Positions 43,242 through 61,212 of a stretch of 64,000 nucleotides of DNA are shown here, piece after piece. Below the pieces are notes generated by a model. It did not search any database. It saw nothing but the letters and a program-made list of their open reading frames with translations, and was not told where the DNA came from. Source of the stretch: Aequorivita capsosiphonis DSM 23843 (GTDB lineage: Bacteria; Bacteroidota; Bacteroidia; Flavobacteriales; Flavobacteriaceae); assembly GCF_000429125.1 (NCBI RefSeq), contig NZ_KE386849.1:220647-284646 (forward strand), in the 5' to 3' direction. Positions within the stretch are counted from its first letter, which is position 1. Each line of letters starts with the position of its first letter. A program made the translations under genes and the position numbers.

Positions 43242-43253
43242 TGACATTTATCA
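43242..43253 (+). promoter_or_regulatory. FNR-type box of hemN
   Basis: TGACATTTATCA fits TGAY-N4-RTCA. A perfect -7 element, TAATTTTG, is at 43277-43284, exactly 23 bases further. The box centre is 33 bases from the -7 centre and hence near -41. The identical 12-mer precedes ccoI. It lies 50 bases before the hemN start. Confidence 0.8.
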
Positions 43254-43303
43254 TTTTATAGTCTTCACGACAAAAGTAATTTTGAGCAGAATTAAAAAAG
43301 CTC

Positions 43304-44668
43304 ATGCAAACAAACCTAGTTTCAAAATACAATGTTCCCGGCCCGCGTTACACCAGTTATCCCACAGTTCCTTATTGGAATAACGAAAGTTTTTCACTGA
43401 AAGAATGGAAGAAAAATGTGACTCAAAGTTTTTCGGAAAGCAATGCTTCTGAAGGCATAAGTCTATATATACATCTTCCTTTTTGCGAAAGTCTCTGCAC
43501 TTTTTGTGGTTGCAACAAGCGGATCACAAAAAATCACAAAGTGGAGACGCCTTATCTCGAATCCGTTTTAAAGGAATGGCGTCTATACCTAGAAATGTTT
43601 AATGAGCGTCCTATAATTAAAGAACTTCATCTTGGGGGCGGTACGCCCACTTTCTTTTCCGCAGAAAACTTAAGGCTTCTTATAAAAGAAATTTTTCGCG
43701 ATGCCACTATGGCCGAAAACCCTTCCTTTAGCTTTGAGGGACATCCCAATAATACAAAGAATGAGCATTTACAAACGCTTTATGATTGCGGATTTACTAG
43801 AGTGAGTTACGGGGTTCAGGATTATAACACCACCGTTCAAATTGCTATTCATAGACTTCAACCCTTTGTAAATGTAAAGCGCGTAACAGAAAGTGCGCGT
43901 GAAATTGGATATACTTCAGTAGGCCACGATATTATTTTTGGTCTTCCTTTTCAAACAAGAGAAAACGTAATGTATTCCATTGAAAAAACCAAAGAACTGA
44001 TGCCAGACCGTATTGCTTTTTATAGTTATGCCCACGTACCTTGGATAAAAGGGAATGGACAGCGCGGTTTTAAGGATGAAGACTTACCGAGTGCTTCAGA
44101 AAAACGAGAAATGTATGAAACCGGCAAACGAATGCTGGAAGAAGCTGGATATATAGAAATTGGGATGGATCATTTCGCCCTTAAAAACGATAGTTTACAC
44201 AAAGCAGTAGAACAAAAGAAACTGCACAGAAACTTTATGGGCTATACTGAAAGTAAAACGCAATTGATGATCGGTCTTGGTGTTTCTGCTATCGGTGATA
44301 GTTGGTACAGTTTTGGGCAAAACTCCAAAAATGTAGAAGAATATCAAGACTTGGTGGAGCAGGGAATCCTTCCCATCCATAAAGGTCATAATCTAAACGA
44401 AGAAGATCTGGTAATTCGTAAACATATTTTAAATATGATGTGTCGTCTGGAAACTTCTTGGAGCGACCCAAAGATGCAATTTAAAGAGTTGCCAGAAGTC
44501 TTGTCTAAACTACAGGAAATGCAAGATGACGGGTTAATTATAATCGGTTTCGAAAGTCTTCAAATTACTGAAAAAGGTCGTCCTTATGTTCGAAATGTGT
44601 GTATGGCTTTCGATCTTCTTTTGCAGCGCAGCAAGCCAGAAATGCAATTGTTCTCCATGACCATTTAG
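43304..44668 (+). CDS. hemN: Oxygen-independent coproporphyrinogen III oxidase
   Basis: A 454-residue radical-SAM enzyme that makes protoporphyrinogen IX without oxygen. The 4Fe-4S cluster motif CxxxCxxC plus one Cys is at C61, C65, C68, C70 (PFCESLCTFCGC), the HemN pattern. GGGTPTFFSAENLRLL follows, as does FEGHPNNTKNEHLQTL and the SYGVQDYN block, all HemN-like and not HemW-like. The C-terminal HemN domain is present. Heme synthesis at low oxygen fits the cbb3 oxidase and cytochrome genes around it. The FNR-type promoter at 43242-43284 supports this. Confidence 0.92.
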   Translation: MQTNLVSKYNVPGPRYTSYPTVPYWNNESFSLKEWKKNVTQSFSESNASEGISLYIHLPFCESLCTFCGCNKRITKNHKVETPYLESVLKEWRLYLEMFNERPIIKELHLGGGTPTFFSAENLRLLIKEIFRDATMAENPSFSFEGHPNNTKNEHLQTLYDCGFTRVSYGVQDYNTTVQIAIHRLQPFVNVKRVTESAREIGYTSVGHDIIFGLPFQTRENVMYSIEKTKELMPDRIAFYSYAHVPWIKGNGQRGFKDEDLPSASEKREMYETGKRMLEEAGYIEIGMDHFALKNDSLHKAVEQKKLHRNFMGYTESKTQLMIGLGVSAIGDSWYSFGQNSKNVEEYQDLVEQGILPIHKGHNLNEEDLVIRKHILNMMCRLETSWSDPKMQFKELPEVLSKLQEMQDDGLIIIGFESLQITEKGRPYVRNVCMAFDLLLQRSKPEMQLFSMTI

Positions 44669-44700
44669 GATAAAAAAATTATTTATTTTATTTGAAATAC

Positions 44701-44712
44701 TGATATTCGTCA
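44701..44712 (+). promoter_or_regulatory. FNR-type box of porin-nirK unit
   Basis: TGATATTCGTCA fits TGAY-N4-RTCA. The -7-like GACTTTTG is at 44736-44743, again exactly 23 bases further. It is less perfect than the hemN and cco boxes, but the spacing is identical. It lies 54 bases before the start of the porin gene. Confidence 0.65.
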
Positions 44713-44766
44713 TTTTTTCCTTGCAAGTATATTCGGACTTTTGTGTCATAAATAACAAATGCGTCA

Positions 44767-46038
44767 ATGAATATTTCGAAAAACTTTATCTTTATCATTC
44801 TTGTGTTAGGCATCACTCAAGGCTACGCACAATTTACAGTAGATGCGCAATTAAGACCTCGATTTGAATTCCGTCACGGTTATAAAACACTTTTTCCTGA
44901 CCATACTGATCCTGCTGCATTTGTCTCGCAACGAACAAGATTGAATTTTGGTTATAAAACCGAAAAGCTTCAAATTTATTTAAGCCCGCAGGATATTCGG
45001 GTTTGGGGAGATGTTCCCCAACTTAATACTGCAGACAACAATGGGATATCGCTTCACCAGGCATGGGCCGAAGTTTTACTGATTCCCGAACTCACCTTAA
45101 AAGTAGGTCGTCAGGAAATTGTTTACGACGACCAAAGGTTTTTCGGCAACGTAGATTGGGCCCAGCAGGGAAGAAGCCATGACGCTGCCATTGTAAAATT
45201 TGAGCCTAGTTTTATGAAATTACATTTGGGGGCGGCATATAATCAAGGTGGAGAATTCTTAACCGGAAATGTTTTGACAGTTAACACCTATAAAAGCTTA
45301 CAATATATATGGCTTCATAAAGATTGGAAAACCATTAGCGCAAGTTTTCTTTTATTGAATAATGGCCAACAATACATTGACGAAATAGACCCAGCAAAAA
45401 ACGACACTCGATACACTCAAACTGCGGGTCTTCATTTAAAAGCAGGTGTAGGTAAATTCAACTTTAGCTCTAATTTTTACTATCAACTTGGAAAAGATGT
45501 TGCCGATAATACTCTAAACGCTTATTTGTTTTCATTGGAAGGTTTATATTCGGCAACAGAAAACCTTAACCTTAGTTTTGGGGGTGAATTACAAAGTGGA
45601 AATGAATATGGAACTCCAAGTAATGGAAAAAACAAGGCTTTTAACCCGCTTTATGGAACCAACCATAAGTTTAATGGGTTTATGGATTATTTTTATGTTG
45701 GCAATCATTTAAACAATGTTGGATTAGTAGATTTATACGGAAATATTAAATATTCATTTAATAAGAAAGCAAATATAACGGCCGTTTTCCATCAATTTTT
45801 CTCAGCTGCTAAGTTAGATGAAGACCTTTCAAAAAACCTTGGTTTTGAAATGGATTTAGTAACTTCGCTAAAATTGAGTGAATTTGTTGGTATACAAGCG
45901 GGTTATTCACATTTCTTTGCTTCCCAAGGAACAGAGGCTTTAAAGAATAATTTTGATGGTAACACCAATAATTGGGCTTGGGCGATGTTGACAATTGATC
46001 CAGTTATTTTCACTTGGCAAAACAACCCGCAGAAATAA
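44767..46038 (+). CDS. Alginate-export-type outer-membrane porin
   Basis: A 423-residue outer-membrane beta-barrel with signal peptide (1-21, ending GYAQ). The start FTVDAQLRPRFEFRHGYKTLF and the block QRTRLNFGYKTEKLQIYLSPQDIRVWGD, then KVGRQEIVYDDQRFFGNVDWAQQGRSHDA, are characteristic of the alginate_exp barrel family. Such proteins often appear by nitrite or nitric oxide reductase genes in Bacteroidota, where they might pass nitrite or another small anion. It opens the plus-strand unit with nirK, nirV-like and SCO genes and has an FNR-type promoter. Confidence 0.75.
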   Translation: MNISKNFIFIILVLGITQGYAQFTVDAQLRPRFEFRHGYKTLFPDHTDPAAFVSQRTRLNFGYKTEKLQIYLSPQDIRVWGDVPQLNTADNNGISLHQAWAEVLLIPELTLKVGRQEIVYDDQRFFGNVDWAQQGRSHDAAIVKFEPSFMKLHLGAAYNQGGEFLTGNVLTVNTYKSLQYIWLHKDWKTISASFLLLNNGQQYIDEIDPAKNDTRYTQTAGLHLKAGVGKFNFSSNFYYQLGKDVADNTLNAYLFSLEGLYSATENLNLSFGGELQSGNEYGTPSNGKNKAFNPLYGTNHKFNGFMDYFYVGNHLNNVGLVDLYGNIKYSFNKKANITAVFHQFFSAAKLDEDLSKNLGFEMDLVTSLKLSEFVGIQAGYSHFFASQGTEALKNNFDGNTNNWAWAMLTIDPVIFTWQNNPQK

Positions 46039-46165
46039 ATAAACATTAATTAACTCAATATAATAAGTAAACAAACCAATGTTATGTATTTATTAAATTT
46101 AAAACCAACCAAGAATTATTAATCAGATCACAACTAATTTTTTAACAACCAAACATTATATCCAC

Positions 46166-47632
46166 ATGAATTTAAGAATCAAAAAAAATTTCGTCACAAA
46201 AATGCTGTTAGGTTTAAGCACAATAGCATTTCTTTCTGGCTGTGTTAATGATCAATCAGACAAAACTTATGATGACGCGGTAGATATTCCGACAAACCAA
46301 GAAATGGTCGCAGAACTTACCTCCCCTCCATTCGTACCAACACCTGTTGGAAAAAGAATGGCAAAAAAGCTGATCGTGGATCTGGAAATCCAGGAACGTG
46401 AAGGTGAAATGGTTGGCGGTGTAAAATATGTCTATTGGACTTTTGGAGGAACCGTTCCAGGAAGTTTCATTAGAACACGCGTTGGCGATGAATTAGAATT
46501 TCATCTTAAAAACCACCCAGACAACAAGCTTCCACACAACATTGACCTTCACGCCGTAAATGGTCCCGGTGGAGGTGCAGAATCTTCCTTCGTTGCTCCA
46601 GGCCACGAAAAAGTATTCTCCTTTAAAGTACTTAATCCAGGCTTATATGTTTACCACTGTGCCACTGCGCCAGTAGGAATGCACATTGCCAATGGAATGT
46701 ATGGCCTTATTCTAGTTGAACCAGAAGGTGGACTAGAACCAGTAGACAGAGAATACTACGTGATGCAAGGTGAATTCTATACAGAAGGTGGCTATGGAGA
46801 CCGTGGCATGCAAGCATTTGATATGCAAAAAGCCATTAATGAAAATCCAGATTATGTTGTATTCAACGGTCACGTTGGTGCCTTAACAGGTGACAATGCA
46901 ATGACAGCAAAAGTGGGCGAAACGGTTCGTCTCTTTGTAGGGAATGGGGGTCCTAGTTTAATTTCGTCTTTCCACGTAATTGGAGAGATTTTCGACAAAG
47001 TGCATGTTGAAGGGGGTGACTTGTTAAATCATAACGTTCAAACAACTTTGATTCCTGCCAGTGGTTCAGCTATTGTTGAATTTAAAGTGGACACTCCCGG
47101 CTCCTTCATCTTAGTGGATCACTCTATGTTTAGAGCCTTTAATAAAGGTGCACTCGCTATGCTAAATGTAGAAGGCGAAGAAAACAAGAAGGTATTTACT
47201 GGTGAAATCCACGATGGTATTTACCTTCCAGAAGGTAGTGTAATCCAGTCTATGCCAAGCCTTGATAGGAAAAAAGCAAAAGAAGAAGTTAAAGCCTTAA
47301 GCTTTGAGGAAAAAATGAAGTTTGGTAAAGACAAGTATATGGCTACTTGTGTTGCCTGTCATCAAGGAAATGGACAGGGAATTGCAGGCGCTTTTCCTCC
47401 ACTTGCAAAATCAGATTATTTAAATGCAGATGTTGATCGTGCAATTGATATTGTATTACACGGAAAAACTGGTGAAATTACAGTGAACGGTGAAAAATAC
47501 AACAGTGTGATGACTGCACAAGCACTTAGTGATGAAGAAGTATCAAACGTACTTACTTACGTTTATAACAGTTGGGGCAACTCCAAAAAAGAAGTTACTC
47601 CACAAATGGTGGAAGCCGTTAGAAACAGATAG
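46166..47632 (+). CDS. nirK: Copper nitrite reductase with C-terminal cytochrome c
   Basis: A 488-residue lipoprotein (lipobox LSGC, Cys26) that reduces nitrite to nitric oxide. Two cupredoxin domains (about 55-370) show type 1 and type 2 copper ligands: LPHNIDLHAV, YVYHCATAPVGMHIANGMYG, SSFHVIGEIFD and LVDHSMFRAFNKGALAML. A linker leads to a cytochrome c domain with CVACH from Cys395, MTAQALSDEEVSNVLTYV at the end. This three-domain form can take electrons directly through its own heme. The membrane anchor suggests attachment to the outer leaf of the inner or the inner leaf of the outer membrane. It is followed by the nirV-like gene after 5 bases. Confidence 0.93.
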   Translation: MNLRIKKNFVTKMLLGLSTIAFLSGCVNDQSDKTYDDAVDIPTNQEMVAELTSPPFVPTPVGKRMAKKLIVDLEIQEREGEMVGGVKYVYWTFGGTVPGSFIRTRVGDELEFHLKNHPDNKLPHNIDLHAVNGPGGGAESSFVAPGHEKVFSFKVLNPGLYVYHCATAPVGMHIANGMYGLILVEPEGGLEPVDREYYVMQGEFYTEGGYGDRGMQAFDMQKAINENPDYVVFNGHVGALTGDNAMTAKVGETVRLFVGNGGPSLISSFHVIGEIFDKVHVEGGDLLNHNVQTTLIPASGSAIVEFKVDTPGSFILVDHSMFRAFNKGALAMLNVEGEENKKVFTGEIHDGIYLPEGSVIQSMPSLDRKKAKEEVKALSFEEKMKFGKDKYMATCVACHQGNGQGIAGAFPPLAKSDYLNADVDRAIDIVLHGKTGEITVNGEKYNSVMTAQALSDEEVSNVLTYVYNSWGNSKKEVTPQMVEAVRNR

Positions 47633-47637
47633 AAATA

Positions 47638-48435
47638 TTGTTTAGATTGAAGTTTTATAGCACCGCGTTTTTCTTAATCCTGTCATTATTTTGCAAGGTT
47701 ACAGCCCAAAATGATAAAATGGTTACAGTAAAAGGCGGTGTTTATTTACCGCTTTATGGCGCCGCAGATCAACTTATAGACGTTGATTCGTTTATGATGG
47801 ACGTACTACCTGTTACAAATACAGATTATTTAAAATTTGTACAGGAAAATCCAAAATGGAAAAAAAGCAATGTAAAAGCTTTATTTGCCGACAAAAGTTA
47901 TTTGGCAAAATGGACAGACGACACCAGTTTTACTGGACTTCCAGATGCTCCTGTGAACAATGTGTCTTGGTTTGCCGCAAAAAAATACTGTGAGTGCCAA
48001 GGAAAACGCCTTCCCACCATGGATGAATGGGAGTTTGCCGCCATGGCGAATGAAGATGTGCAAGATGCTCGAAAAATAAAGTCGTATAATCAGTATATCT
48101 TAAATTGGTATGAAGCCCCCAGAACTTATAATAAGTCTGTTGGATCTACGTTTAAAAATTATTGGGGAATCTATGACCTCCACGGTTTGGTATGGGAGTG
48201 GACCCAAGATTTCAACTCCGTACTTATCTCTGGAGAATCCAGAAAAGATCAGGACAAAGACTCCAATCTTTTCTGCGGAAGTGCTGCCATTGGTGCTTCA
48301 GATTTAATGAATTATGCTGCATTTATGCGCTATGCTTTCCGCGGAAGTATGAAAGCACGTTATAGCTCACAAAACTTAGGCTTTCGATGTGCAAAAGATA
48401 TTGAAAAACTAGACGTAGGGCAAAAAGACTTATGA
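47638..48435 (+). CDS. nirV: NirV-like FGE-sulfatase-domain protein
   Basis: A 265-residue exported protein of the SUMF1/formylglycine-generating-enzyme fold: VTVKGGVYLPL, DVLPVTNTDYLKFVQENP, PVNNVSWFAAKKYCECQGKRLPTMDEWEFAA, GLVWEWTQDFNS and FRGSMKARYSSQNLGFRCAKD. Relatives named NirV follow nirK in other denitrifiers and their role is unclear. The gene starts 5 bases after nirK. The listed start is TTG at 47638; a second TTG at 47650 (MKFYSTAFF) would also give a full signal peptide. The name follows from both the fold and its position. Confidence 0.78.
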   Translation: MFRLKFYSTAFFLILSLFCKVTAQNDKMVTVKGGVYLPLYGAADQLIDVDSFMMDVLPVTNTDYLKFVQENPKWKKSNVKALFADKSYLAKWTDDTSFTGLPDAPVNNVSWFAAKKYCECQGKRLPTMDEWEFAAMANEDVQDARKIKSYNQYILNWYEAPRTYNKSVGSTFKNYWGIYDLHGLVWEWTQDFNSVLISGESRKDQDKDSNLFCGSAAIGASDLMNYAAFMRYAFRGSMKARYSSQNLGFRCAKDIEKLDVGQKDL

Positions 48436-48553
48436 CCTTCCGACGAAGGGCAAGCGCAGGACGAATTTTAAATTTTTTTAATCTTATTCCTGCCGGAAAG
48501 AAGATATTGCGTCCTGTCGTCTTAAATCATTGTTTTAAAAACTCTAAATTATT

Positions 48554-49171
48554 ATGATACACTTTAAACATATATTACTTGTACTTTCTTTAGTTGCAAT
48601 ATCTTGTAACGATACTTCAAAGAAAGATTCCGAAACTGCGGAAGCGGATATTTTGGAAAATACTGATAGTGAAAAAATATCGGATATGTCCATTTATAAC
48701 CTTCCCTCTCAATGGACTACACAAGACGGCAATGAAATTGAATTAAAAGAACTGAAAGGAAAAGTATTGGCAATGGTGATGATCTACACTTCTTGTCAAG
48801 CTGCTTGTCCACGATTGGTTGCAGATATGCGCAATATTGAAAAACAGATTCCAGAAGATAAAAAAAATGATGTGCAATACGTTTTCGTTAGCATAGACCC
48901 AGAAACTGACACGCCTGAACGTTTAACAGCTTTCGCCAAAGAGAATGAAATGGAAGAGGACAAATGGCTATTTCTACGTGGCACGGAAGAAGATACACGC
49001 GAATTTGCAGCCGTATTGGCTGTAAACTATAAAGAAATTTCACCAATAGATTTCTCCCACTCAAACATTATAAGTGTTTTTGACCAGGGTGGCGAACTTG
49101 CTCACCAACAAGAAGGACTTGGCGTTGACAATAAAGAAACCGTCCAAACTATTATCGATTTAGCAAAATAG
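48554..49171 (+). CDS. SCO1/SenC-type copper chaperone lipoprotein
   Basis: A 205-residue thioredoxin-fold lipoprotein (lipobox AISC, Cys18). The copper ligands are Cys81 and Cys85 (TSCQAACPRL), and the histidine in DFSHSNIISVF. SIDPETDTPERLTAF is the usual family block. SCO proteins bring copper to oxidase or to copper reductase centres. Placed after nirK and opposite the cbb3 operon, it could serve either. A 118-bp gap separates it from nirV. Confidence 0.88.
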   Translation: MIHFKHILLVLSLVAISCNDTSKKDSETAEADILENTDSEKISDMSIYNLPSQWTTQDGNEIELKELKGKVLAMVMIYTSCQAACPRLVADMRNIEKQIPEDKKNDVQYVFVSIDPETDTPERLTAFAKENEMEEDKWLFLRGTEEDTREFAAVLAVNYKEISPIDFSHSNIISVFDQGGELAHQQEGLGVDNKETVQTIIDLAK

Positions 49172-49175
49172 TTTG

Positions 49176-49248: not shown

Positions 49249-49252
49249 AAGA

Positions 49253-49438: not shown

Positions 49439-49450
49439 AGCATAAAGTTT

Positions 49451-49621: not shown

Positions 49622-49633
49622 GATATAACTATT

Positions 49634-50377: not shown

Positions 50378-50395
50378 TGTTTAAGATTCAAAGTT

Positions 50396-50630: not shown

Positions 50631-50631
50631 T

Positions 50632-51202: not shown

Positions 51203-52624
51203 CTATTTATAACTTCGAGGTCCCAAAAATGTCGCACTCGTTGTTTCAATCAAATTTTTGCCGCTATAGACTTCAATAACAGCACGGTTTTTATCCCCGC
51301 TTAAGGCAGAATTGTTAATTTCAATAAAGAGTGTTCCTTCAGCTAAATCCTGAGCTGGTACTATAATCTCGCCCTGTTTTACGGTTTTAATTGTTCCTTT
51401 TGGAGATTTCAGCACAAAGTGAATGTCTTCTATATCCTTGGTAGTTTTATTGAGCAGTTTATAGGTGAACACATTACTAATTATATTATTCTCTTTGTGC
51501 TCATACAACTGACCTGGAAGTCTTAAAACATTAGCTTCTACATCACTTCTTAAAAACAGGAGACCACTCAAAACTCCAATCAATATTATCAACACTGCGG
51601 TATAGCCTTTCAATCTAGGTGTAAAACTAAAAGGAGTCTTTTTCTCAATATTCTCTTCGCTGGCATAACGAATCAATCCCTTAGGAAGATTTACAGCTTC
51701 CATTATATCATCACAAGCATCCATACAAGCAGTACAGTTAATGCACTCCAACTGCGTTCCATTCCGTATATCTATCCCTGTAGGACAAACGTTAACACAC
51801 TGAAAACAGTCTATACAATCTCCTTTTCCAGAAGCTTCCCGGTCTTCATTCTTTTTGAATTTAGCCCTTCCAACTTCCTTTTCTCCTCGCTTGTGATCAT
51901 AGGCAACAATAATAGATTTATTGTCTAGCAACACTCCTTGCAACCTTCCGTAAGGACAAGCGATTATACAGACTTGTTCGCGGAACCAAGCAAAAATAAA
52001 GTAGAATACACCGGTAAATATTAAAAGTGAAATAAGTGTACTTATATGATCTAATGGTCCTTCAAAAACATACTGTAATAAACGATCACTTCCTATAAAA
52101 TAGGCTAGGAATATATTGGCGGTTAGAAATGAAATAATAAAAAAAATGAACCATTTTAATGCTCTTTTCTTAATCTTGGCTGCATTCCAAGGTGCTTTAT
52201 CTAAACGAATCTGAGCTCCTCTATCTCCATCAATCCAATATTCAACTCTTCGGAATACCATTTCCATAAAAATTGTTTGCGGACAGATCCATCCACAAAA
52301 AATCCTTCCGAAGGCCGCTGTAAAAAAGATTATAAATACCACTCCGATGATCATCATAATCACGAAGAGATAAAAATCTTGCGGCCAAAATGGGAATCCG
52401 AGAATATTGAAACGACGCTCAAGAACATTGAATAGCAAAAACTGATTGCCATTAATTTTCACAAAAGGTGCTAGAAAGAAAAACGCAAGTAAAACATAAC
52501 TCACATATATTCTATACTGGTAAAATTTTCCAGATGGCTTCTTAGGATAAACCCAAGCTCTTTTCCCCTCTTCGGTCAAGGTACCAATACTATCTCTAAA
52601 GGATTCGTTTTCGGGAGTTTCCAA
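51203..52624 (-). CDS. ccoG: Cytochrome c oxidase accessory protein, 4Fe-4S
   Basis: A 473-residue membrane ferredoxin (RdxA/FixG). Several membrane helices in the N-terminal half hold FGRIFCGWICPQTIFMEMVFRRVE and EQVCIIACPYGRLQG. Two 4Fe-4S clusters are given by CIDCFQCVNVCPTGIDIRNG and CINCTACMDACDDIM. An IG-like FixG C-terminal domain follows from about 370 (LPGQLYEHKENNIISN). CcoG reduces copper for the assembly of the cbb3 oxidase in studied bacteria. It is inside the cco operon, between ccoP and ccoH. Confidence 0.93.
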   Translation of the reverse strand: METPENESFRDSIGTLTEEGKRAWVYPKKPSGKFYQYRIYVSYVLLAFFFLAPFVKINGNQFLLFNVLERRFNILGFPFWPQDFYLFVIMMIIGVVFIIFFTAAFGRIFCGWICPQTIFMEMVFRRVEYWIDGDRGAQIRLDKAPWNAAKIKKRALKWFIFFIISFLTANIFLAYFIGSDRLLQYVFEGPLDHISTLISLLIFTGVFYFIFAWFREQVCIIACPYGRLQGVLLDNKSIIVAYDHKRGEKEVGRAKFKKNEDREASGKGDCIDCFQCVNVCPTGIDIRNGTQLECINCTACMDACDDIMEAVNLPKGLIRYASEENIEKKTPFSFTPRLKGYTAVLIILIGVLSGLLFLRSDVEANVLRLPGQLYEHKENNIISNVFTYKLLNKTTKDIEDIHFVLKSPKGTIKTVKQGEIIVPAQDLAEGTLFIEINNSALSGDKNRAVIEVYSGKNLIETTSATFLGPRSYK

Positions 52625-52701: not shown

Positions 52702-53595
52702 TTATAATTCCGCAGTGGCATCATCCTCTGCCCATAAATCCCCCTCTGCTTCTTTTCCATCAGGTGGATTTGTGCCGTGTAAACTAATAACATAACTAGC
52801 CACTTGCGCCATCTCACTTGGTTTAAGATCAGATTTCCAAGCAATCATTCCCTTTCCGGCACGACCACCTTCACTAATAGTGTGGAAAACATTTTTAATC
52901 CCCCCACCTAAAATCCAATAATCATCGGTTAGGTTCGGACCAATCCCCCCACCACCATTGTCTTTATGACAGGCAACACAGTTATCCATATATATGGTTT
53001 TACCAGCAGCAAGGTCTGAAGCGTCCGTCATTAGTTCAACAGACTCTGCATCAATTAGATCTTTGTTGTTTTTCTTAAATTCGGCAATTTCTTCCTTTGC
53101 TATTGCAACTTCAGTTTCATATTCATCAATCTGGTTAGGACCGTCAAACACCTCATAATAAACAAAATAAGCTACTCCAAAAACAATGGTAATATAAAAA
53201 AGGTATTTCCACCAAGGTGGAAGGTTGTTATCCAACTCGCGAATTCCATCATAGTTATGATCCATTACAATTTCTTGCTCGCTTTCTATTGGCCTGGAAT
53301 CCAACATTTCGTGATATTTCCTTTTAAACCAGCCAAAACGATTTTCTTCACGTAACTCCTCGGCAGCAACAAAACGTTCTTGAGCTTCTGGATTAAGACT
53401 GGCAAACAAGATACGCTGTAAAGCAGCGGCAATTACTTCAAATACAATTGCTAGAAACAGTATCATCACTAATACTGCCCACATAATGGGATATTTGATT
53501 ATTGCTAGATCTTTTCCGGAATCAACAATGAATTCCATTAGAAAAAATGCGAGGATCATAAAGCCAGTGACTCTTAAATATGATGCTATTTTCAT
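52702..53595 (-). CDS. ccoP: cbb3 oxidase subunit III, mono-heme
   Basis: A 297-residue membrane cytochrome c that passes electrons to the CcoNO core. Two N-terminal helices (about 10-28, 36-62) and a third before the periplasmic part (about 128-148, preceded by the signature ELDNNLPPWWKYLFY). The cytochrome domain has one CVACH (Cys206, Cys209, His210) and MIAWKSDLKPSEMAQVASYV. Classical CcoP proteins have two such motifs; only one is present here. The start overlaps the ccoQ stop by 4 bases (ATGA). Confidence 0.92.
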   Translation of the reverse strand: MKIASYLRVTGFMILAFFLMEFIVDSGKDLAIIKYPIMWAVLVMILFLAIVFEVIAAALQRILFASLNPEAQERFVAAEELREENRFGWFKRKYHEMLDSRPIESEQEIVMDHNYDGIRELDNNLPPWWKYLFYITIVFGVAYFVYYEVFDGPNQIDEYETEVAIAKEEIAEFKKNNKDLIDAESVELMTDASDLAAGKTIYMDNCVACHKDNGGGGIGPNLTDDYWILGGGIKNVFHTISEGGRAGKGMIAWKSDLKPSEMAQVASYVISLHGTNPPDGKEAEGDLWAEDDATAEL

Positions 53596-53789: not shown

Positions 53790-53791
53790 AA

Positions 53792-55993
53792 TTAATCGTT
53801 TTGGACCGAAGCATCTTCGGTGTTTTGTACTTTAATATCAGTTCCCAATCGCTGCAAATAAGCTATAACTGCTACAATTTCACGGTTTTTCATTTCAATA
53901 AAATCTTCTCCGTTGTCTTGTGCATATTTTTTATCTGCTTCATAGGTTGTCACAAAATCGGGATCGCTATAAAGATTCTGCTCTATTTTTGTTCCTTGCT
54001 CATCCATCCATTGTTGTGCTCTTTCTATTTCCTCATCGGTATAAGGCACGCCAATTGTTGTAAGCGCACGCATTTTATCTTCGGTATTAGACTTGTTCAA
54101 TTCTGAACTCACCAACCATTTATAGGAAGGCATGATAGAGCCTGAAGAAGTACTCTGCGGGTCATACATATGGTTTAAATGCCAGTTATCGGAATACTTC
54201 CCACCAATACGATGTAAGTCTGGACCGGTACGTTTACTTCCCCATAAAAATGGATGGTCGTAAACATATTCCCCAGATTTAGAATATTCGCCATAGCGCT
54301 CCACCTCACTTCTAAATGGACGTATCATTTGTGTATGGCAGTTTACGCAACCCTCACGAATATAAATATCGCGACCCTCCAACTCTAAAGGCGTATATGG
54401 TTTAACAGATGAAATTGTAGGTACATAATCATCAACCATCAGCGATGGAATAATTTGCACCATTCCCCCAATTAAAATTGCGATGGTTGCATAAATTGTC
54501 AATTTAACAGGACGACGCTCCAACCAAGTGTGCCAGCCTTCACCAACAGTCTGTCTTTTGGTTACTGGAGTAAGCGGTGCTGCTTCTGCTAATTCATCGG
54601 TAACCTTGCTTCCATTTCTTGCAGTCATTATCATATTGTAAAGCAAAATAAAGGCTCCTGTAATATAAAGACTACCACCAATGGCACGCATCCAGTACAT
54701 AGGCATAATTTGAGTCACCGTTTCAAGGAAGTTTCCATAAGTAAGTGTTCCATCAGGGTTAAACTGATTCCACATGGAAGCCTGCATAAAACCTGCAACA
54801 TACATTGGTAAGGCATACATAATAATACCTAAAGTACCTATCCAGAAATGTGCGTTCGCTAATTTTATGGAGTAGAGTTTGGTCTTAAACAATCTCGGCA
54901 CCAACCAATAAATCATACCAAAGGCCAAGAAACCGTTCCAGGCAAGGGCGCCAACGTGAACGTGGGCAATAATCCAGTCACTAAAGTGTGCAATGGCGTT
55001 TACGTTTTTAAGCGAAAGCATGGGGCCTTCAAAAGTTGCCATCCCGTATCCCGTTATGGCTACTACGAAAAATTTCAAAACTGGATCTACACGAACTTTA
55101 TCCCAAGCACCGCGTAAGGTTAAAAGACCGTTAATCATACCTCCCCAAGATGGGGCCAAAAGCATTACAGAAAAGGCAACCCCTAGGTTTTGCGCCCACT
55201 CCGGAAGTGCTGTATATAACAAATGATGCGGCCCAGCCCAAATATAAATAAAGATCAAAGACCAAAAGTGAACGATAGAAAGTCGGTAGGAATATACCGG
55301 TCTATTTGCCGCTTTTGGAACAAAATAATACATCAAACCAAGAAAAGGCGTGGTTAAGAAAAACGCAACCGCATTATGCCCGTACCACCATTGCACCAGC
55401 GCATCCTGCACTCCAGCGTACATAGAATAACTCTTTAAGGCAGTTACAGGAATTGCCATACTGTTCACGATATGCAAAACGGCAACAGTTACCCACGTTC
55501 CCAAATAAAACCAAAGGGCAACATATAAGTGACGCTGGCGTCTTTTGACCATGGTCATTATCAAGTTGATACCAAAAGCCACCCAAATTACCGCTATGGC
55601 AATATCAATAGGCCATTCCAGTTCCGCATATTCTTTTGATGTGGTATAACCTAAAGGCAAGGTAATGGCAGCAGCAACAATAATTGCTTGCCAACCCCAG
55701 AAGTTTAGGTTACTAAGCGCATCACTCCACATTCGCGCTTTCAGCAAACGCTGACTGGAATAATAAACTCCGGCAAATATGGCGTTCCCAACAAATGCGA
55801 AAATCACGGCATTGGTGTGTAAAGGCCGTAAACGACCAAAACTAAGCCAAGAAATTCCGTCCGTCATATTCGGGAACATAAACATATAGGCCAGCAGTAA
55901 ACCTACACTCATACCTATAAGTCCCCAAAAAATGGTCGCATAGATAAATTTTTTGACAATCTGATTGTCGTAGTAAAACTGTTCTGTTTGCAT
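53792..55993 (-). CDS. ccoNO: cbb3 oxidase subunits I and II, fused
   Basis: A 733-residue fusion of the catalytic subunit CcoN (about 1-480) and the mono-heme cytochrome subunit CcoO (about 500-733). CcoN histidines for heme and copper are seen in RPLHTNAVIF (His59), WWYGHNAVAFFLTTPFLG, GPHHLLYTALP and IIAHVHVGALAWNGF. CcoO shows GRDIYIREGCVNCHTQMIRPF and the distal methionine region SIMPSYKWLV. The fused form is the rule in Bacteroidota. The oxidase has high oxygen affinity and is used at low oxygen. It starts 13 bases after ccoS. Confidence 0.96.
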   Translation of the reverse strand: MQTEQFYYDNQIVKKFIYATIFWGLIGMSVGLLLAYMFMFPNMTDGISWLSFGRLRPLHTNAVIFAFVGNAIFAGVYYSSQRLLKARMWSDALSNLNFWGWQAIIVAAAITLPLGYTTSKEYAELEWPIDIAIAVIWVAFGINLIMTMVKRRQRHLYVALWFYLGTWVTVAVLHIVNSMAIPVTALKSYSMYAGVQDALVQWWYGHNAVAFFLTTPFLGLMYYFVPKAANRPVYSYRLSIVHFWSLIFIYIWAGPHHLLYTALPEWAQNLGVAFSVMLLAPSWGGMINGLLTLRGAWDKVRVDPVLKFFVVAITGYGMATFEGPMLSLKNVNAIAHFSDWIIAHVHVGALAWNGFLAFGMIYWLVPRLFKTKLYSIKLANAHFWIGTLGIIMYALPMYVAGFMQASMWNQFNPDGTLTYGNFLETVTQIMPMYWMRAIGGSLYITGAFILLYNMIMTARNGSKVTDELAEAAPLTPVTKRQTVGEGWHTWLERRPVKLTIYATIAILIGGMVQIIPSLMVDDYVPTISSVKPYTPLELEGRDIYIREGCVNCHTQMIRPFRSEVERYGEYSKSGEYVYDHPFLWGSKRTGPDLHRIGGKYSDNWHLNHMYDPQSTSSGSIMPSYKWLVSSELNKSNTEDKMRALTTIGVPYTDEEIERAQQWMDEQGTKIEQNLYSDPDFVTTYEADKKYAQDNGEDFIEMKNREIVAVIAYLQRLGTDIKVQNTEDASVQND

Positions 55994-56006
55994 AATGGTA
56001 ATAAAA

Positions 56007-56234
56007 TTATTTATCTGGATTGGTTAATTGTTTCTTGCTACCTGAAGCCATGGTTTCTGCAGTTTCAGTTTTTGACGTGGCGCCTTCCTTCACAAGTTCA
56101 TCATCAAAAAGCATCCGCACCGAGGGGGTGTAGGTATCATCATACTGCCCTTTTTTCATAGAAAAAATGAACAATACAAAAAAGACAAGAGCCACAAAGA
56201 GACTAATTGCCAAAAGCATGTAAATGATGTTCAT
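56007..56234 (-). CDS. ccoS: cbb3 oxidase maturation protein
   Basis: A 75-residue protein with one membrane helix (about 2-24) and the CcoS signature FSMKKGQYDDTYTPSVRMLFDDE. CcoS is needed for cofactor insertion in cbb3 oxidases. It is the first gene after the FNR-type promoter at 56254-56296, so it heads the operon ccoS-NO-Q-P-G-H. Confidence 0.9.
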   Translation of the reverse strand: MNIIYMLLAISLFVALVFFVLFIFSMKKGQYDDTYTPSVRMLFDDELVKEGATSKTETAETMASGSKKQLTNPDK

Positions 56235-56253
56235 ACCTAAAAATTTTAAAAGT

Positions 56254-56261
56254 CAAAAATA
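56254..56261 (-). promoter_or_regulatory. -7 element of ccoS operon
   Basis: TATTTTTG on the minus strand is an exact TAnnTTTG. It is 23 bases from the FNR-type box and 20 bases before the ccoS start. Confidence 0.75.
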
Positions 56262-56284
56262 TTGTTGAAAATGCCCTTAATATA

Positions 56285-56296
56285 TGACATTTGTCA
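56285..56296 (-). promoter_or_regulatory. FNR-type box of ccoS-NOQPGH operon
   Basis: TGACATTTGTCA is a palindrome (TGACA-TT-TGTCA at plus orientation). It sits exactly 23 bases upstream of the -7 element TATTTTTG (56254-56261). On the minus strand its first three bases (56296-56294) are the TGA stop codon of ccoI. Confidence 0.85.
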
Positions 56297-58726
56297 ATTT
56301 TGCTTATTTATATTCATTCTTAATTTCTTCCCAACATATTGTGTTGCGAGGGTTGTGAAAACTACAATGCTTATAGAGCTTAAAGGCATTAGAATGGCCG
56401 CCACTACAGGTCGTAAATGTCCCGTAATTGCAAAGCTTAAGCCTATTAAATTATAAAACAAAGAGAATAAAAATGCCCATTTAATTATCTTTACGCCAAT
56501 CTTTGAAAAGTTTAAATAATCAGCAATTTTGTTGAATTGCGTGGCATCCAAAATCCCATCACAAGCAGGAGAAAAAACATTCGTGTTTTCTGAAATAACA
56601 AAACCCACATCACTCTGCTTTAAGGCTCCAGCGTCATTTAACCCATCGCCTATCATCAAGACGCGTTTGCCCTCTTGTTGTAGTGATTTTATAAAGTTGA
56701 GCTTGTCGTTCGGTTTTTGGTTGAAATGCAACTTCACTCCTTTTGGAAGCATAGCCTCCAAACGTTCGCGTTCGCCTTCATTGTCGCCGGAAAGAACTAT
56801 TACTTCTTTATCTTCCCCTAACTGTTTAAAAACATCGGCAACGCCACTTCTGTATTCGCTGTTGAAAATATAACACCCTTTATAAACCTTGTTTGCACTG
56901 ATGTGAACCGTGGTTTTATTTTTAACTTCCCTGATAGTGTCATCATAAGAACCAACAAATTCATAAGAACCAACCTTTATGGAATTGTCGTTAAAACTTG
57001 CGGAAATTCCCTTTCCTACTTCTTCTTCAAAATCATCTAAAGTCTGTATATCATTTTTTTCAAGAATGCTGTAAAGAGAACGACTCAAAGGATGGCTGGA
57101 AGCCCGAAGGGTGTTGGTTAGCAATTTTTTTTCCTCCGAAGAAAGCGCAACGCCTTCATACGTAATCAAGTTTTTCTTATTGGTGGTGAGGGTTCCCGTT
57201 TTGTCGAAAACGACGGTATCCAACTTCGCCATTTGTTCAATAATTGGAGCTTCTTTTAAATACAGTTTTTCTCTTCCGAAGATACGTAGCACGTTCCCCA
57301 ATGTGAAAGGAGCAGCTAATGCAATGGCGCACGGACAAGCGACAATTAGCACCGCCGTAAATACATTAAACGCTTTTGAAGGATCAACAATTAACCAGAA
57401 AATAGTCGAAATACAGGCAATGGAAAGCAGCGTTACGGTAAAGCGCTTACTAATACTGTCCGTCAAGGATTCAAAAATACCCGTTTTGTCTTTACTAAAA
57501 ACATCATTACTCCACAGCTGGGTTAAATAGCTTTGGGAAACTGGTTTTAAAACTTCTACTTCTACAATTCCAGCCTGTTGTCTTCCACCGGCAAAGAGCT
57601 TATCGCCGCTTTGTTTTGAAATGGGTTCCGCCTCGCCGGTTACAAAACTATAGTCAATTAGTGCATTGCCTTTGATCAAGATTGCATCTACAGGTAGTAT
57701 TTCGTTATTCCGAATTAATAATCGGTCGCCTTTTTCAACTGTATAAACTTCGGCCTGTTCCTCAACAATTTTTCCTTCTTCATTTTTAAAAAGTCGCGTA
57801 ACGGCAATTGGAAAATAGGACTTATAATCGCGTTCAAAAGAGAGATAGCTATATGTTTTCTGCTGAAAATATTTCCCGAGAAGCAAAAAGAAAACCAAGC
57901 CCGTAAGACTGTCAAAAAAACCAGTACCCCAATCCATAACAATATCAATAGTACTGCGTATAAAAAGAACCGCTACTCCCAATGCAATGGGAACGTCGAT
58001 ATTTAATATTTTAGAGCGAAGTCCCTTATATGCAGAAGTGAAATAGCCACTTGCCGAATAAAAAACCACCGGTAGCGAAAAAGCAAACATCAACCAGCGG
58101 AAGAATGGTTTAAACTGATCCAACCAAAATTCCGAATCTTCAAAATACTCTGGAAGCGAAAGGAACATGATATTCCCGAATGCAAAACCTGCAATGGTTA
58201 ATTTATAGATTAAACTTCGGTTGACGTCCTTTTCCTTTTTATTAGAGTCATCCAGCGAAATATAGGGTTCGTAGCCAATTCTACTCAGTAAAATAACTAG
58301 GTTTTTTAAGGTATTCTCCTGTTTGTCGGTACCCAACGTTTCCGTTGTAAAAGTGATTCGAACGGTTTTTTCGGGGAAGTTTACCTGAGATGTTTTTACC
58401 GAAGGATTAAGTTTATTGAGGTTTTCTAGAATCCAAATACAACTGCTACAGTGAATTGAAGGAATAACAAAGGAAACAATCTGCATTTTTCCATCGTTAA
58501 ACTCCAGTAGTTTTTCAACTATAGCTTCGTTATCTAAAAAGTCGTATTTCCCAGCAATTTCCAGAGGAGAAGTACCTGGGGTTTTTTCAAGATCGTAATA
58601 ATAACTTAGGTCGTTGTAGTGAAGAATATCGTAAACCGTTTTGCAGCCATGGCAACAAAAAGATTTATCATCGTGCGTAATCTCAACATCCAAGCACGCA
58701 TCTCCACAATGGAAACAGTTTACCAT
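56294..58726 (-). CDS. ccoI: Copper-transporting P-type ATPase of cbb3 assembly
   Basis: An 810-residue P1B ATPase (FixI/CtpA). The N-terminus has a Cys-rich metal-binding domain (MVNCFHCGDACLD, FCCHGCKTVYDIL), then an HMA domain with SIHCSSCIWILENL (about 90-105). Eight membrane helices include VACPCAIALAAPF with the CPC motif. The phosphorylation site is DKTGTLT, the nucleotide domain has ASSHPLSRSLY, and the hinge is MIGDGLNDAGALKQSDVG. It supplies copper to the oxidase. It has its own FNR-type promoter at 58757-58799. Confidence 0.95.
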   Translation of the reverse strand: MVNCFHCGDACLDVEITHDDKSFCCHGCKTVYDILHYNDLSYYYDLEKTPGTSPLEIAGKYDFLDNEAIVEKLLEFNDGKMQIVSFVIPSIHCSSCIWILENLNKLNPSVKTSQVNFPEKTVRITFTTETLGTDKQENTLKNLVILLSRIGYEPYISLDDSNKKEKDVNRSLIYKLTIAGFAFGNIMFLSLPEYFEDSEFWLDQFKPFFRWLMFAFSLPVVFYSASGYFTSAYKGLRSKILNIDVPIALGVAVLFIRSTIDIVMDWGTGFFDSLTGLVFFLLLGKYFQQKTYSYLSFERDYKSYFPIAVTRLFKNEEGKIVEEQAEVYTVEKGDRLLIRNNEILPVDAILIKGNALIDYSFVTGEAEPISKQSGDKLFAGGRQQAGIVEVEVLKPVSQSYLTQLWSNDVFSKDKTGIFESLTDSISKRFTVTLLSIACISTIFWLIVDPSKAFNVFTAVLIVACPCAIALAAPFTLGNVLRIFGREKLYLKEAPIIEQMAKLDTVVFDKTGTLTTNKKNLITYEGVALSSEEKKLLTNTLRASSHPLSRSLYSILEKNDIQTLDDFEEEVGKGISASFNDNSIKVGSYEFVGSYDDTIREVKNKTTVHISANKVYKGCYIFNSEYRSGVADVFKQLGEDKEVIVLSGDNEGERERLEAMLPKGVKLHFNQKPNDKLNFIKSLQQEGKRVLMIGDGLNDAGALKQSDVGFVISENTNVFSPACDGILDATQFNKIADYLNFSKIGVKIIKWAFLFSLFYNLIGLSFAITGHLRPVVAAILMPLSSISIVVFTTLATQYVGKKLRMNINKQN

Positions 58727-58756
58727 TAATCTAATATTTGCTCATTATTACGGCAG

Positions 58757-58764
58757 CAAATATT
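58757..58764 (-). promoter_or_regulatory. -7-like element of ccoI
   Basis: AATATTTG on the minus strand differs from TAnnTTTG at the first base only. The 23-base distance to the FNR-type box is the same as for hemN and ccoS. Confidence 0.55.
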
Positions 58765-58787
58765 ACAAAACCTTATTGAAGTTAAAA

Positions 58788-58799
58788 TGACATTTATCA
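58788..58799 (-). promoter_or_regulatory. FNR-type box of ccoI
   Basis: TGACATTTATCA (plus orientation) is identical to the hemN box. It is 61 bases before the ccoI start and 23 bases from the -7-like AATATTTG. Confidence 0.8.
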
Positions 58800-58848
58800 G
58801 CTTTAAACTTTAAATAAAATTTTGAAAAATTAAATTTAAAGCTGTAAT

Positions 58849-60063
58849 TTAGGCAGAAAGATATATACTTTTAATCTGTTTAAAAAATAAAACTCCCACA
58901 GCAATAGGAAAGAGACAACTTAAAAAGGCGAGATAGATATAATAATCCTGAAAAAATGGAAGCCCAAGCCATAAAGCCACGGCTTTGTAGAATATAAGCG
59001 TTTCCGTAGTGACGAAGGCTACAAGAAATAACCACAGAAAGCTTTTGGGAATATTGAGCAGCTTGAAATAATTTAGGAAAGCCATCATTGTTGTAATGAC
59101 AACCCCTAGAAATACCAAGTGTAAATAGCCAATTACAAAATCTTTAAGCTGAAATGCCAAATTGGCCATATATGGAAATGCCGAAGTCACCTGCATCAAT
59201 ATTTTTACGATCACTAAACCTCCAGCTATTTTCAGAAGAAAAAAAGAACGTTCCGAGAAAGCATGTTTTAAAACCTTAAAATTAGCTTTTAGTAATATAT
59301 AAAGTTCATAAAACGCTAGTAACTGTGCAATGGTTCCTATCAATCCCATAACATAAAAAACTTTGGGCGGCACAAACCAGAGTGCTGAAAGAAACAACGT
59401 AAAGATAATACCGAAGTTTAAAAGCAGGAAAAAAGATTTCAGTTTCTCTCGATTGAATTCGATCCCTTTTTCCTCAAGGATATAGAAGAGAACTCCCAAT
59501 AACGCCAAGATAAACCAGCCATTATATTGAAAGTGAAGGTAAAAATATATGGAGGTTTTATACCAAATAGACTCCGGCCCTAGTGTTGCCATCACCCCGC
59601 CAATAGCCCAGGGACCAATACTGGAAAAAACCAGATACCAAAGTGAAGTTTTTATCAGTTTCCAGGAAAAACGCTTTTTAAAGTGAGATGGAATATGCTT
59701 TATCGCGAACCACGCAAACCAATAGGAGGCAAACAAAAAAAGCGTTGAGAAAATAATGGAATATAGCGCATATCCTTGGATCGGAAATGTTACAATCATT
59801 CCAAGAATACAAATATTTGTAAAGAAGAAAATACGTTTGTAAAGCTTCGGTTTCTGTGCTTCCGAAAGGAAAATTTTATAGATCAAGGTGGTCAAGCCTA
59901 AATAAATCCACCCCAAGAGTGCCGTATGGGAATGTGCATGAAGCAGAAACTTATAATTTATGGGAAGAGAGGTTACCATGTAAAACCTCAGCACGAGGCC
60001 CATTAACGCCACGATCAAAAAATAGGCAACGGCGATGCCAATATGTTTTTTTAGATCAATCAA
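58849..60063 (-). CDS. His-rich polytopic membrane protein of unknown function
   Basis: A 404-residue protein with about twelve membrane helices. Conserved-looking histidines are in membrane context: His42, His44, His46 in KFLLHAHSHTALLGW, the segment YLHFQYNGWFILALLG near 180, and IGYLHLVFLGV near 310. Such patterns recall heme or copper ligands of heme-copper oxidases or NnrS proteins, but the full set of neither is present. The start is TTG at 60063 because an in-frame stop lies four codons upstream. It stands between ric and ccoI. I infer a link to nitric oxide or heme-copper chemistry from the location only. A strong terminator-like hairpin lies in its leader. Confidence 0.65.
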   Translation of the reverse strand: MIDLKKHIGIAVAYFLIVALMGLVLRFYMVTSLPINYKFLLHAHSHTALLGWIYLGLTTLIYKIFLSEAQKPKLYKRIFFFTNICILGMIVTFPIQGYALYSIIFSTLFLFASYWFAWFAIKHIPSHFKKRFSWKLIKTSLWYLVFSSIGPWAIGGVMATLGPESIWYKTSIYFYLHFQYNGWFILALLGVLFYILEEKGIEFNREKLKSFFLLLNFGIIFTLFLSALWFVPPKVFYVMGLIGTIAQLLAFYELYILLKANFKVLKHAFSERSFFLLKIAGGLVIVKILMQVTSAFPYMANLAFQLKDFVIGYLHLVFLGVVITTMMAFLNYFKLLNIPKSFLWLFLVAFVTTETLIFYKAVALWLGLPFFQDYYIYLAFLSCLFPIAVGVLFFKQIKSIYLSA

Positions 60064-60076
60064 GCTGTAAAATTAC

Positions 60077-60133
60077 AAAAAAACAGTTCGGAGTTTGACA
60101 TCAAACATTCAAAGTTGTCAAACTTCCGAACTG
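60077..60133 (-). terminator. Strong terminator-like hairpin before the His-rich protein
   Basis: CAGTTCGGAGTTTGACA (60084-60100) pairs with TGTCAAACTTCCGAACTG (60116-60133), 17 bp with a single bulged base, loop of 15. On the minus strand seven T residues follow (complement of 60077-60083). It ends 14 bases before the start codon at 60063. It can end transcripts from ric, 260 bases upstream, or act as an attenuator. Confidence 0.75.
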
Positions 60134-60310
60134 CAATAAAAACCAATTAAATAAAAATATGGGGGCAAGCACAAAGTCCGCCAAAATATAGGCCACGAAT
60201 GCACGAATAATGTAAAAGGGACTTAGGTGCTTTTATTTTCACAAATATTCCCGAATAATCATTCACGGAATATTAAATTAGCAACACTCTTAAAATTATT
60301 AATCAGGAAT

Positions 60311-60330
60311 AATCCTGAAACTTCAGGATT
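60311..60330. repeat. Perfect 8-bp inverted repeat after ric
   Basis: AATCCTGA (60311-60318) and TCAGGATT (60323-60330) pair around AACT. A further CAGGAAT at 60304-60310 could pair alternatively. No T-run follows on the minus strand. Confidence 0.5.
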
Positions 60331-60392
60331 GGCTAAAGAAGTCAATTAATTTTACACAACAGATCTATTGACTCCTAAACCCTTTTATACTT

Positions 60393-61118
60393 TTAGTTTT
60401 TCTTTAATTTCTTTTCTAAACTCAATGATTTTGGGAAAAGAATATTGTTTTCTAAGTGTATGTGGTGGTGAAGATCTTGTTCAAATTCATCCAACTTGGC
60501 ATAAAATGCGCGGTAGGTATTGCAAGCTCCTTGTGGTGGTGTGTAGTTATCACTTAATTCAGCCATTTTACGCATAATTTCACCAGCTTCTTCGTGCTCC
60601 TCCTCCATCATAGCGATCGGGTTCTCTACACTTCCAAAATGGATTGGTGGAACCTCAGTACCTTCACGCTCAGCTTTTACTAATTTCTTAATAAAAGGGA
60701 ATAAAATCAATTCTTCTTTCTTTTGGTGCGCTGCCATTGCCTGAACGACTTGTAACACTAAGGCTTCTATTTCTGCAAGCTCGGTATAATGATGTCCGTG
60801 AACGTGATTTACTCGTTTTGAATATTGTAAAAGCAACGGACTGTTCTCCTCTACATAATGATGGTGTACGTTTATGATATGATCTGCAAGGAAATCCAGT
60901 TTCCAGCTATTATAATCTGAGGCACGGTCTGGTGCATTGTCTAGATTTACTAATTCCGCAAGTAAAACTGAAGGATCCACTTTTGCTTTTTCACAAGCTT
61001 TTGTGATACTTACTCCGCCGCCACAGCAAAAGTCAATGCCGTGTTTTTTGAATATGTGCGCGGCTTTTATGTTTTCTGTAACCACATCGGCTACGGTACG
61101 TTCTTGTAGTGTTGTCAT
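60393..61118 (-). CDS. ric: Iron-sulfur cluster repair di-iron protein
   Basis: A 241-residue Ric (ScdA/YtfE) protein. The N-terminal ScdA_N domain has HIFKKHGIDFCCGGGVSITKAC (about 22-43). The hemerythrin-like domain gives di-iron ligands by histidines and glutamates in INVHHHYVEENSPLL, HVHGHHYTELAEIEAL, HQKKEELILFPF and HHHIHLENNILFPKSL. Ric repairs iron-sulfur clusters damaged by nitric oxide or oxidants. This fits the neighbouring nitrite reductase that generates NO. It has an FNR-type promoter with two boxes (61151-61212). Confidence 0.93.
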   Translation of the reverse strand: MTTLQERTVADVVTENIKAAHIFKKHGIDFCCGGGVSITKACEKAKVDPSVLLAELVNLDNAPDRASDYNSWKLDFLADHIINVHHHYVEENSPLLLQYSKRVNHVHGHHYTELAEIEALVLQVVQAMAAHQKKEELILFPFIKKLVKAEREGTEVPPIHFGSVENPIAMMEEEHEEAGEIMRKMAELSDNYTPPQGACNTYRAFYAKLDEFEQDLHHHIHLENNILFPKSLSLEKKLKKN

Positions 61119-61150
61119 GATTTTTAAAGTTATAATGAATATTAATGAAG

Positions 61151-61158
61151 CAAATTTC
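61151..61158 (-). promoter_or_regulatory. -7-like element of ric
   Basis: GAAATTTG on the minus strand differs from TAnnTTTG at the first base only. It is 23 bases from the box at 61182-61193. Confidence 0.5.
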
Positions 61159-61181
61159 AGCAGAAAAAAATGAAAATCTTA

Positions 61182-61193
61182 TGACTTAAATCA
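61182..61193 (-). promoter_or_regulatory. FNR-type box of ric (proximal)
   Basis: TGACTTAAATCA fits TGAY-N4-RTCA and has the 23-base spacing to the -7-like element that is seen at the other four promoters. Confidence 0.7.
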
Positions 61194-61198
61194 TATAA

Positions 61199-61212
61199 TG
61201 ACATTTTTGTCA
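61199..61212 (-). promoter_or_regulatory. Second palindrome upstream of ric (distal)
   Basis: TGACA-TTTT-TGTCA is a perfect 14-bp inverted repeat with half-sites two bases further apart than in the standard box. Its centre is 18 bases from the proximal box, near -59. It may bind the same or a related regulator. Confidence 0.55.

Follow-up and report, generated by a model that had tools for sequence, protein, structure and literature searches.

The 64,000-nucleotide stretch of Aequorivita capsosiphonis DSM 23843 analysed here (the window) carries genes of haem synthesis, nitrite reduction, cbb3 oxidase and iron-sulphur cluster repair, behind five putative promoters. Each combines a predicted activator box, TGAY-N4-RTCA, with an 8-mer ending in TTTG that starts exactly 23 bases 3' of it (a distance called N23 below). 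The original prediction, made from the DNA letters, had described these five pairs, and a pattern search recovered every one of them in place. On the forward strand, box TGACATTTATCA (43242..43253) and, 23 bases 3' of it, the -7 element TAATTTTG (43277..43284), of the form TAnnTTTG described in part of PMC9723704, precede hemN, encoding an oxygen-independent coproporphyrinogen III oxidase (43304..44668; TIGR00538 above cut-off). Box TGATATTCGTCA (44701..44712) and -7 element GACTTTTG (44736..44743) follow on the same strand, before genes for an alginate-export-type porin (Alginate_exp, PF13372; 44767..46038) and for NirK, a copper nitrite reductase with a C-terminal cytochrome c (46166..47632; TIGR02376 above cut-off, PF00034).

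The cco cluster lies on the reverse strand. Its ccoI gene (56294..58726; a CcoI-type cation P-type ATPase, PF00122, PF12156) has box TGATAAATGTCA (58788..58799) and -7 element AATATTTG (58757..58764); in relatives this box is common to a divergent fnr gene, which is absent here. At the end of ccoI, box TGACAAATGTCA (56285..56296) and -7 element TATTTTTG (56254..56261) form a second promoter, for ccoS (56007..56234; TIGR00847 above cut-off), a ccoNO fusion (53792..55993; PF00115, PF02433) and ccoP (52702..53595; PF14715), with ccoG (51203..52624; PF13746, PF11614) in the downstream part of the cluster. The fifth pair, box TGATTTAAGTCA (61182..61193) and -7 element GAAATTTG (61151..61158), stands before ric, encoding an iron-sulphur cluster repair di-iron protein (60393..61118, reverse strand; TIGR03652 above cut-off). 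The gene names given earlier thus agree with the TIGRFAM matches (hemN, nirK, ccoS, ric) and with Pfam (porin, CcoNO, CcoP, CcoG and the CcoI-type ATPase). The two boxes described as identical 12-mers are so on the forward strand; read in the direction of their genes they are not, as the palindrome is read one way at hemN and the other way at ccoI.

Five matches to TGAY-N4-RTCA-N23-NNNNTTTG are found in the window, where 0.08 are expected from 100 dinucleotide shuffles (the largest count in a shuffle was 1). The pattern is thus far from equally frequent in shuffled DNA, which the original prediction had named as the result that would speak against it. The box without the distance occurs 7 times against 4.2 expected, and 12 of the 100 shuffles have at least 7, i.e. 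there is no enrichment. It is therefore the combination of box and fixed distance that carries the signal.

Promoter layout and its distribution

The full TAnnTTTG form is present at hemN and ccoS, while the first T is replaced by G or A at nirK, ccoI and ric; all five window sites have the A that follows. Flavobacterium psychrophilum has a sigma-A element TAnnTTTG that passages of PMC9723704 place at -12 to -5, and by its sequence the 8-mer corresponds to this Bacteroidota/flavobacterial element. With these coordinates the 12-mer falls at -47 to -36, centred on -41.5. The proposed class II geometry holds with the published -7 coordinates, and we regard as well supported that the layout is that of a class II activator promoter.

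The genome of the strain (4.04 Mb in 26 contigs, with the window at C3:220647-284646) contains 23 matches to the complete pattern and 3 to the reversed pattern used as a control; 19 are intergenic and 5' of a gene, 3 lie within genes and 1 is ambiguous. The genome scan suggested earlier therefore bears the pattern out, most matches standing before genes. When the gap was left variable we obtained 124 matches, and among the 100 matches listed 19 have N23, the next-best distance having 7. Although the query left position 2 of the 8-mer free, 18 of the 19 intergenic sites have A there; position 1 is T in 12. Neither a clear -33 motif nor any conservation of the base 5' of TGA was found among them. 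In the ccoI promoters gathered from relatives (see below), a T-rich stretch lies 3' of the box.

Outside the window, N23 sites precede further genes. Two of them stand before an operon with a clade II nosZ (TIGR04246 above cut-off), and others before a gene for an HPF/YfiA ribosome hibernation factor (TIGR00741 above cut-off), universal-stress-type genes, and genes for a CoA-transferase-type protein and a thioredoxin-reductase-like flavoprotein, both of which remain below cut-off. YceI-like and MlaE-like genes, named by eye only, are also among the members. The regulons of FNR, ANR or FixK have this gene content. Comparable content is described for FixK regulons in part of PMC13327599, and when oxygen is limiting F. 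psychrophilum raises its cbb3 oxidase and its haem synthesis, according to sections of PMC9723704. It is well supported that the five sites are promoters of one low-oxygen regulon, which probably responds to nitrogen oxides too. The single regulon proposed from the window is thus retained and extends beyond it; the single regulator is not, as relatives have FNR, a receiver-Crp fusion (described below) or both over the same boxes.

We then compared the spacing among 30 genomes of the family (this one included), drawn from a 296-genome sample, again with the reversed pattern as control. N23 gives 538 sites against 65 controls and exceeds the control in 30/30 genomes; the figures are 229 against 92 for N24 (28/30) and 142 against 106 for N22 (18/30). 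A scan of named genomes for ccoI yielded 54 loci, the nearest being that of Aequorivita sinensis (88% identity). A box lies within 250 bases 5' of ccoI in 47, and of these 40 have N23 and 2 have N22. In all 40 N23 promoters the 8-mer has A as its second base; its first base is T in 18, all from Pontibacter or Adhaeribacter, and another base in 22. The ccoI promoters of 18 Pontibacter and Adhaeribacter loci (L157-L183) have a pair of boxes with a separation of exactly 22 bases, or about two turns of the helix; the closer box is at N23 in 17 of the 18 and, in L173, at N23 from TTTA. For the internal promoter, where ccoI ends, 22 loci have a box, at N23 in 14 and at N22 in 3. Lutibacter loci L149 and L174 have N22 at both cco promoters, which reads as a one-base shift running through the lineage, and a metagenome-assembled genome (MAG) of Flavobacteriaceae (L186) has it at the second promoter only.

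These counts also bear on whether the boxes and their distance could be chance matches in AT-rich intergenic DNA. The chance level of the box alone in the window agrees with this idea, as do the genomic matches that are within genes or ambiguous. The spacing and reversed-pattern controls refute it, with the excess over shuffles in the window, the excess of N23 over the 30 genomes that collapses at N22, and the share of ccoI loci with N23; we consider chance practically out of the question. The geometry had been called rigid: N23 dominates, and some lineages have N24 or N22, so the distance is not absolute. It does not appear to be specific to FNR either, since boxes of the form TAAC-N4-GTTA beside another Crp-type protein, that of C11:13874, are also at N23. 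Judged from sequence, the 23-base distance is rigid, neither absolute nor FNR-specific.

Candidate regulators in the genome

Three proteins of the genome exceed the Pfam HTH_Crp_2 cut-off (C3:364086-365138, C3:208429 and C11:13874), and a fourth, weaker Crp-type protein is found at C2:220584. None of these has the N-terminal cysteine pair of FNR. The first, of 350 amino acids, joins a response regulator receiver to cNMP and HTH_Crp domains, i.e. a complete Crp/Fnr part (the fusion, below). The gene of a PAS-HisKA-HATPase kinase (C3:365140-366375) lies one base before it, and all 10 fetched loci of the fusion have a histidine kinase gene directly 5' of it. Directly behind the fusion, 7 of these loci have a box, at N23 from either TTTG or TTTA, with a stress-protein-type gene next in 6 of the 7. 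When the FNR of relatives is used as query (E <= 1e-20), the fusion is the sole Crp-type match in this genome, and its recognition helix A-T-E-S-L-I-R fits the A-T-E-S-x-I-R of that FNR, unlike that of the C11 protein. We searched for a cysteine-bearing FNR in the genome and found only the fusion, and beside ccoI in the window fnr is absent, with no significant remnant. FNR, named earlier as the regulator, thus has to be set aside here; the statement that the regulator is not encoded in the window agrees with the position of the best candidate, the fusion, outside it.

The C11:13874 protein, present in 30/30 genomes of the family, was considered and rejected: its helix S-R-V-V-I-S-R lacks the Glu and its adjoining boxes are TAAC-N4-GTTA. 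Such boxes stand at N23 from TAnnTTTG beside proteins of this type in the present genome (C11:13787-13829, reverse strand) and in L069, L072 and L073. They show no genome-wide enrichment at N23 in the 30 genomes (76 sites against 101 controls, sums by hand), and for 14 of the 76 there is a match to a C11-type protein at a distance of up to about 5 kb (hand count). These proteins share a conserved cysteine-rich motif of the GDTCAM type.

The signal entering the fusion would depend on its kinase, whose PAS domain, compared with the whole PDB, matches FixL best (E 8.5e-16). The top 13 of the 17 PDB matches comprise 7 FixL, 4 DosP, 1 "heme pas sensor protein" and 1 "yddU", which we take to be a name of DosP; a multi-sensor kinase and blue-light receptors follow. 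His67 and Arg87 of the kinase align to His 200 and Arg 220 of FixL in the PDB alignment, presumably the residues that bind haem and oxygen. Among single-PAS kinases the His is kept in 8/8 and the Arg in 6/8, and both are kept in all five FNR-less genomes. The kinase PAS domain may accordingly bind haem.

The promoters are rather more probably than not read by the fusion, under the FixL-like kinase, in place of the Fe-S FNR of relatives, the promoters having stayed unchanged. The geometry is legible in the DNA itself; the identity of the regulator and its oxygen sensing are what we infer. A Crp/Fnr-type dimer would bind TGAY-N4-RTCA at -41.5 and activate from there, beside a polymerase whose Bacteroidota sigma-A reads TAnnTTTG. 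For the present strain, the fusion is the most likely such dimer, to judge by its domain content, the genes linked to it, its recognition helix and its occurrence among genomes. The kinase, with a PAS domain like the haem oxygen sensor of FixL, would phosphorylate it, and the FixL, FixJ and FixK steps of rhizobia would be held in two proteins. Together they would stand in for the cysteine-bearing FNR encoded divergently from ccoI in most relatives. The kinase-fusion operon has a box of its own 25 bases before TACTTTTG (C3:366380-366424, reverse strand), a hint of autoregulation.

The second Crp protein offers another explanation. This free-standing protein (C3:208429-209016, 195 amino acids), encoded beside a truncated-globin-like gene, could be a DNR-like nitrogen-oxide sensor acting on the same boxes. 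Its helix R-V-E-T-V-I-R retains the Glu and the Arg, boxes of the same type stand beside proteins of its type in 7 of 8 fetched loci, and three of the five FNR-less genomes encode one. We nevertheless find it unlikely: proteins of this type (E <= 1e-15) occur in 46 of the 296 genomes and are missing from the FNR-less G130 and G234, which keep a few boxes (4 sites against 0 controls and 10 against 2, respectively). The protein's own locus here has no exact box, and the Flavobacterium-like loci L064-L068 have boxes at N24, not N23. The two proteins might also both act on the boxes and divide the two signals, oxygen and nitrogen oxides, between them, in the way that one box is common to FnrN and FixK in rhizobia (PMC7888657, in the part available). 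Both helices would be compatible, the targets mix oxygen genes (cco, hemN) with nitrogen-oxide genes (nirK, nosZ, ric), and FNR and the fusion occur together in 5 of the 30 relatives. No class of site divides the two gene groups among the 19 sites, however, and we rate this division of labour as slightly less probable still than control by the second protein.

FNR and the fusion in relatives

FNR is found at E<1e-70 in 25 of the 30 family genomes. In 24 of these 25 loci fnr is divergent from ccoI with one box common to both, the exception, L123, having no divergent ccoI. On the ccoI side, this shared box has N23 in 18 cases, N24 in 4, N22 in 1 and TTTA at N23 in 1. In L077-L082 it also lies about 9-11 bases from a TTTG element facing fnr, as if FNR repressed its own gene. 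The FNR of relatives has Cys 4, 7, 53 and 106 in 29/29 proteins read (L129, one of the 30 FNR loci, is excluded, its ORF being in the wrong frame), one of them displaced relative to known FNR, and seven family genomes lacking both a full-length fusion and the second Crp protein encode an FNR with the N-terminal cysteine pair.

Exchange of FNR for the fusion by sensor replacement is consistent with their distribution. A close fusion (E<1e-100) is present in 5/5 FNR-less genomes (the present one, G053, G088, G130 and G234) and in 5/25 of the others, and 0/30 lack both (Fisher p 0.0018, ancestry not corrected). Genomes G029 and G088 have the same genus label, yet G029 has FNR without the fusion and G088 the fusion without FNR. 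Among 43 genomes of the class outside the family (FNR at E<=1e-40, fusion at full length), 24 have the fusion only, with 239 sites against 51 controls and 21/24 above control; 11 have FNR only (129 sites against 16 controls) and 3 have both (50 against 7). In the MAG CG2_30_34_30 (L143), the kinase, the fusion and a stress-protein gene lie divergent from ccoI, in the place of fnr, with an N23 box 5' of the stress-protein gene.

Several observations weigh against the fusion as the oxygen-responsive reader of these promoters. No exact box was found at ccoI in L143, despite the adjoining cassette. Of the 24 genomes of the class that have the fusion only, 3 do not exceed the control; the 5 without either protein still have 22 sites against 10 controls; and boxes are as numerous in FNR-only genomes as in fusion-only ones. 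The second Crp protein also has E-x-x-I-R and is shared by 3/5 of the FNR-less genomes. The case for haem is one of resemblance, and PAS domains without haem can look alike. Moreover, oxygen need not be the signal of the cassette in every genome: the FNR-bearing G226 encodes, ahead of its fusion, a kinase whose first domain is of the LOV type known from blue-light receptors (L052 17-1504). A LOV-type kinase is also seen in L054 (motif NCRFLQ, by eye) and probably in L058. In such FNR-bearing relatives the same set of boxes might be linked to light.

Relation to known systems

By analogy, the promoters would work like class II FNR promoters combined with FixL-FixJ-FixK. The class II FNR/CRP promoters of Escherichia coli also have a palindromic TGA-type box at -41.5 beside the polymerase, with a -10 TATAAT where the Bacteroidota -7 box is TAnnTTTG. 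The Aliivibrio-type Fe-S FNR (5cvr, 9qlt) aligns with residues 4-223 of the relatives' FNR (E about 1e-18), and Cys4, Cys7 and Cys106 of the latter fall on FNR cysteines; the relatives' protein lacks the third cysteine of CX2CX5C and has a conserved Cys53 instead. As the present genome has no Fe-S FNR protein, the term FNR control does not strictly apply to it.

The rhizobial system described in passages of PMC13327599 and PMC7888657 likewise has a PAS kinase (FixL being the closest to ours), a receiver and a Crp/Fnr output protein, and its targets, cco genes (fixNOQP and fixGHIS type) and haem synthesis, are alike. FixJ and FixK are separate there, whereas receiver and Crp/Fnr part are fused here in the one 350-residue protein, which leaves no separate fixJ-to-fixK transcription step; without separate FixJ and FixK, this is not the rhizobial cascade. 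The rhizobial anaerobox is TTGAT-N4-ATCAA (part of PMC7888657), while the base before TGA is unconserved here. In the same source, FnrN and FixK of Rhizobium leguminosarum are two different oxygen-linked regulators with one type of box; here the regulators mostly replace each other, FNR and a close fusion coexisting in only those five family genomes.

On a broader scale, for which we see the chances as even, a FixL-like haem kinase, with a FixJ-FixK protein made in one piece, would have displaced Fe-S FNR as the oxygen sensor with the regulon unchanged, once in the very place of fnr by ccoI. The combination box-N23-TAnnTTTG would then be a general Bacteroidia activation code for Crp/Fnr paralogs with different half-sites, and the shifts to N24 (at ccoI in four genomes of genus g2) and N22 (Lutibacter) natural experiments on class II geometry. 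Such a sensor exchange under fixed promoters would be a clean case of oxygen control rewired with the target genes untouched. The polymerase of Bacteroidota reads a different core element, which is why activator promoters are poorly defined in this group, and a rigid, searchable layout would make low-oxygen and denitrification regulons, including those with clade II nosZ, predictable from sequence. In the open full-text literature, which leaves out most subscription journals, our searches listed nothing on such a promoter geometry in flavobacteria or on a receiver-Crp fusion. The authors of PMC8510549 state that the genomes they studied, from Ignavibacteria, Flavobacteriales and Saprospiraceae, gave them no evidence that CRP/FNR proteins control denitrification.

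Some minor features complete the description. Two boxes of the window lack the N23 element (24577-24588 and 55546-55557), the latter lying within ccoNO. The CoA-transferase-type gene (C3:290628-291955, reverse strand), behind a box at 291953, seems split over two overlapping frames, by a frameshift or an assembly error. Between ccoI and ric, the window encodes a 404-residue protein (58849-60063, reverse strand) with no Pfam match at E <= 0.001, and A. sinensis (L134) has in the same place a protein of equal length and similar start.

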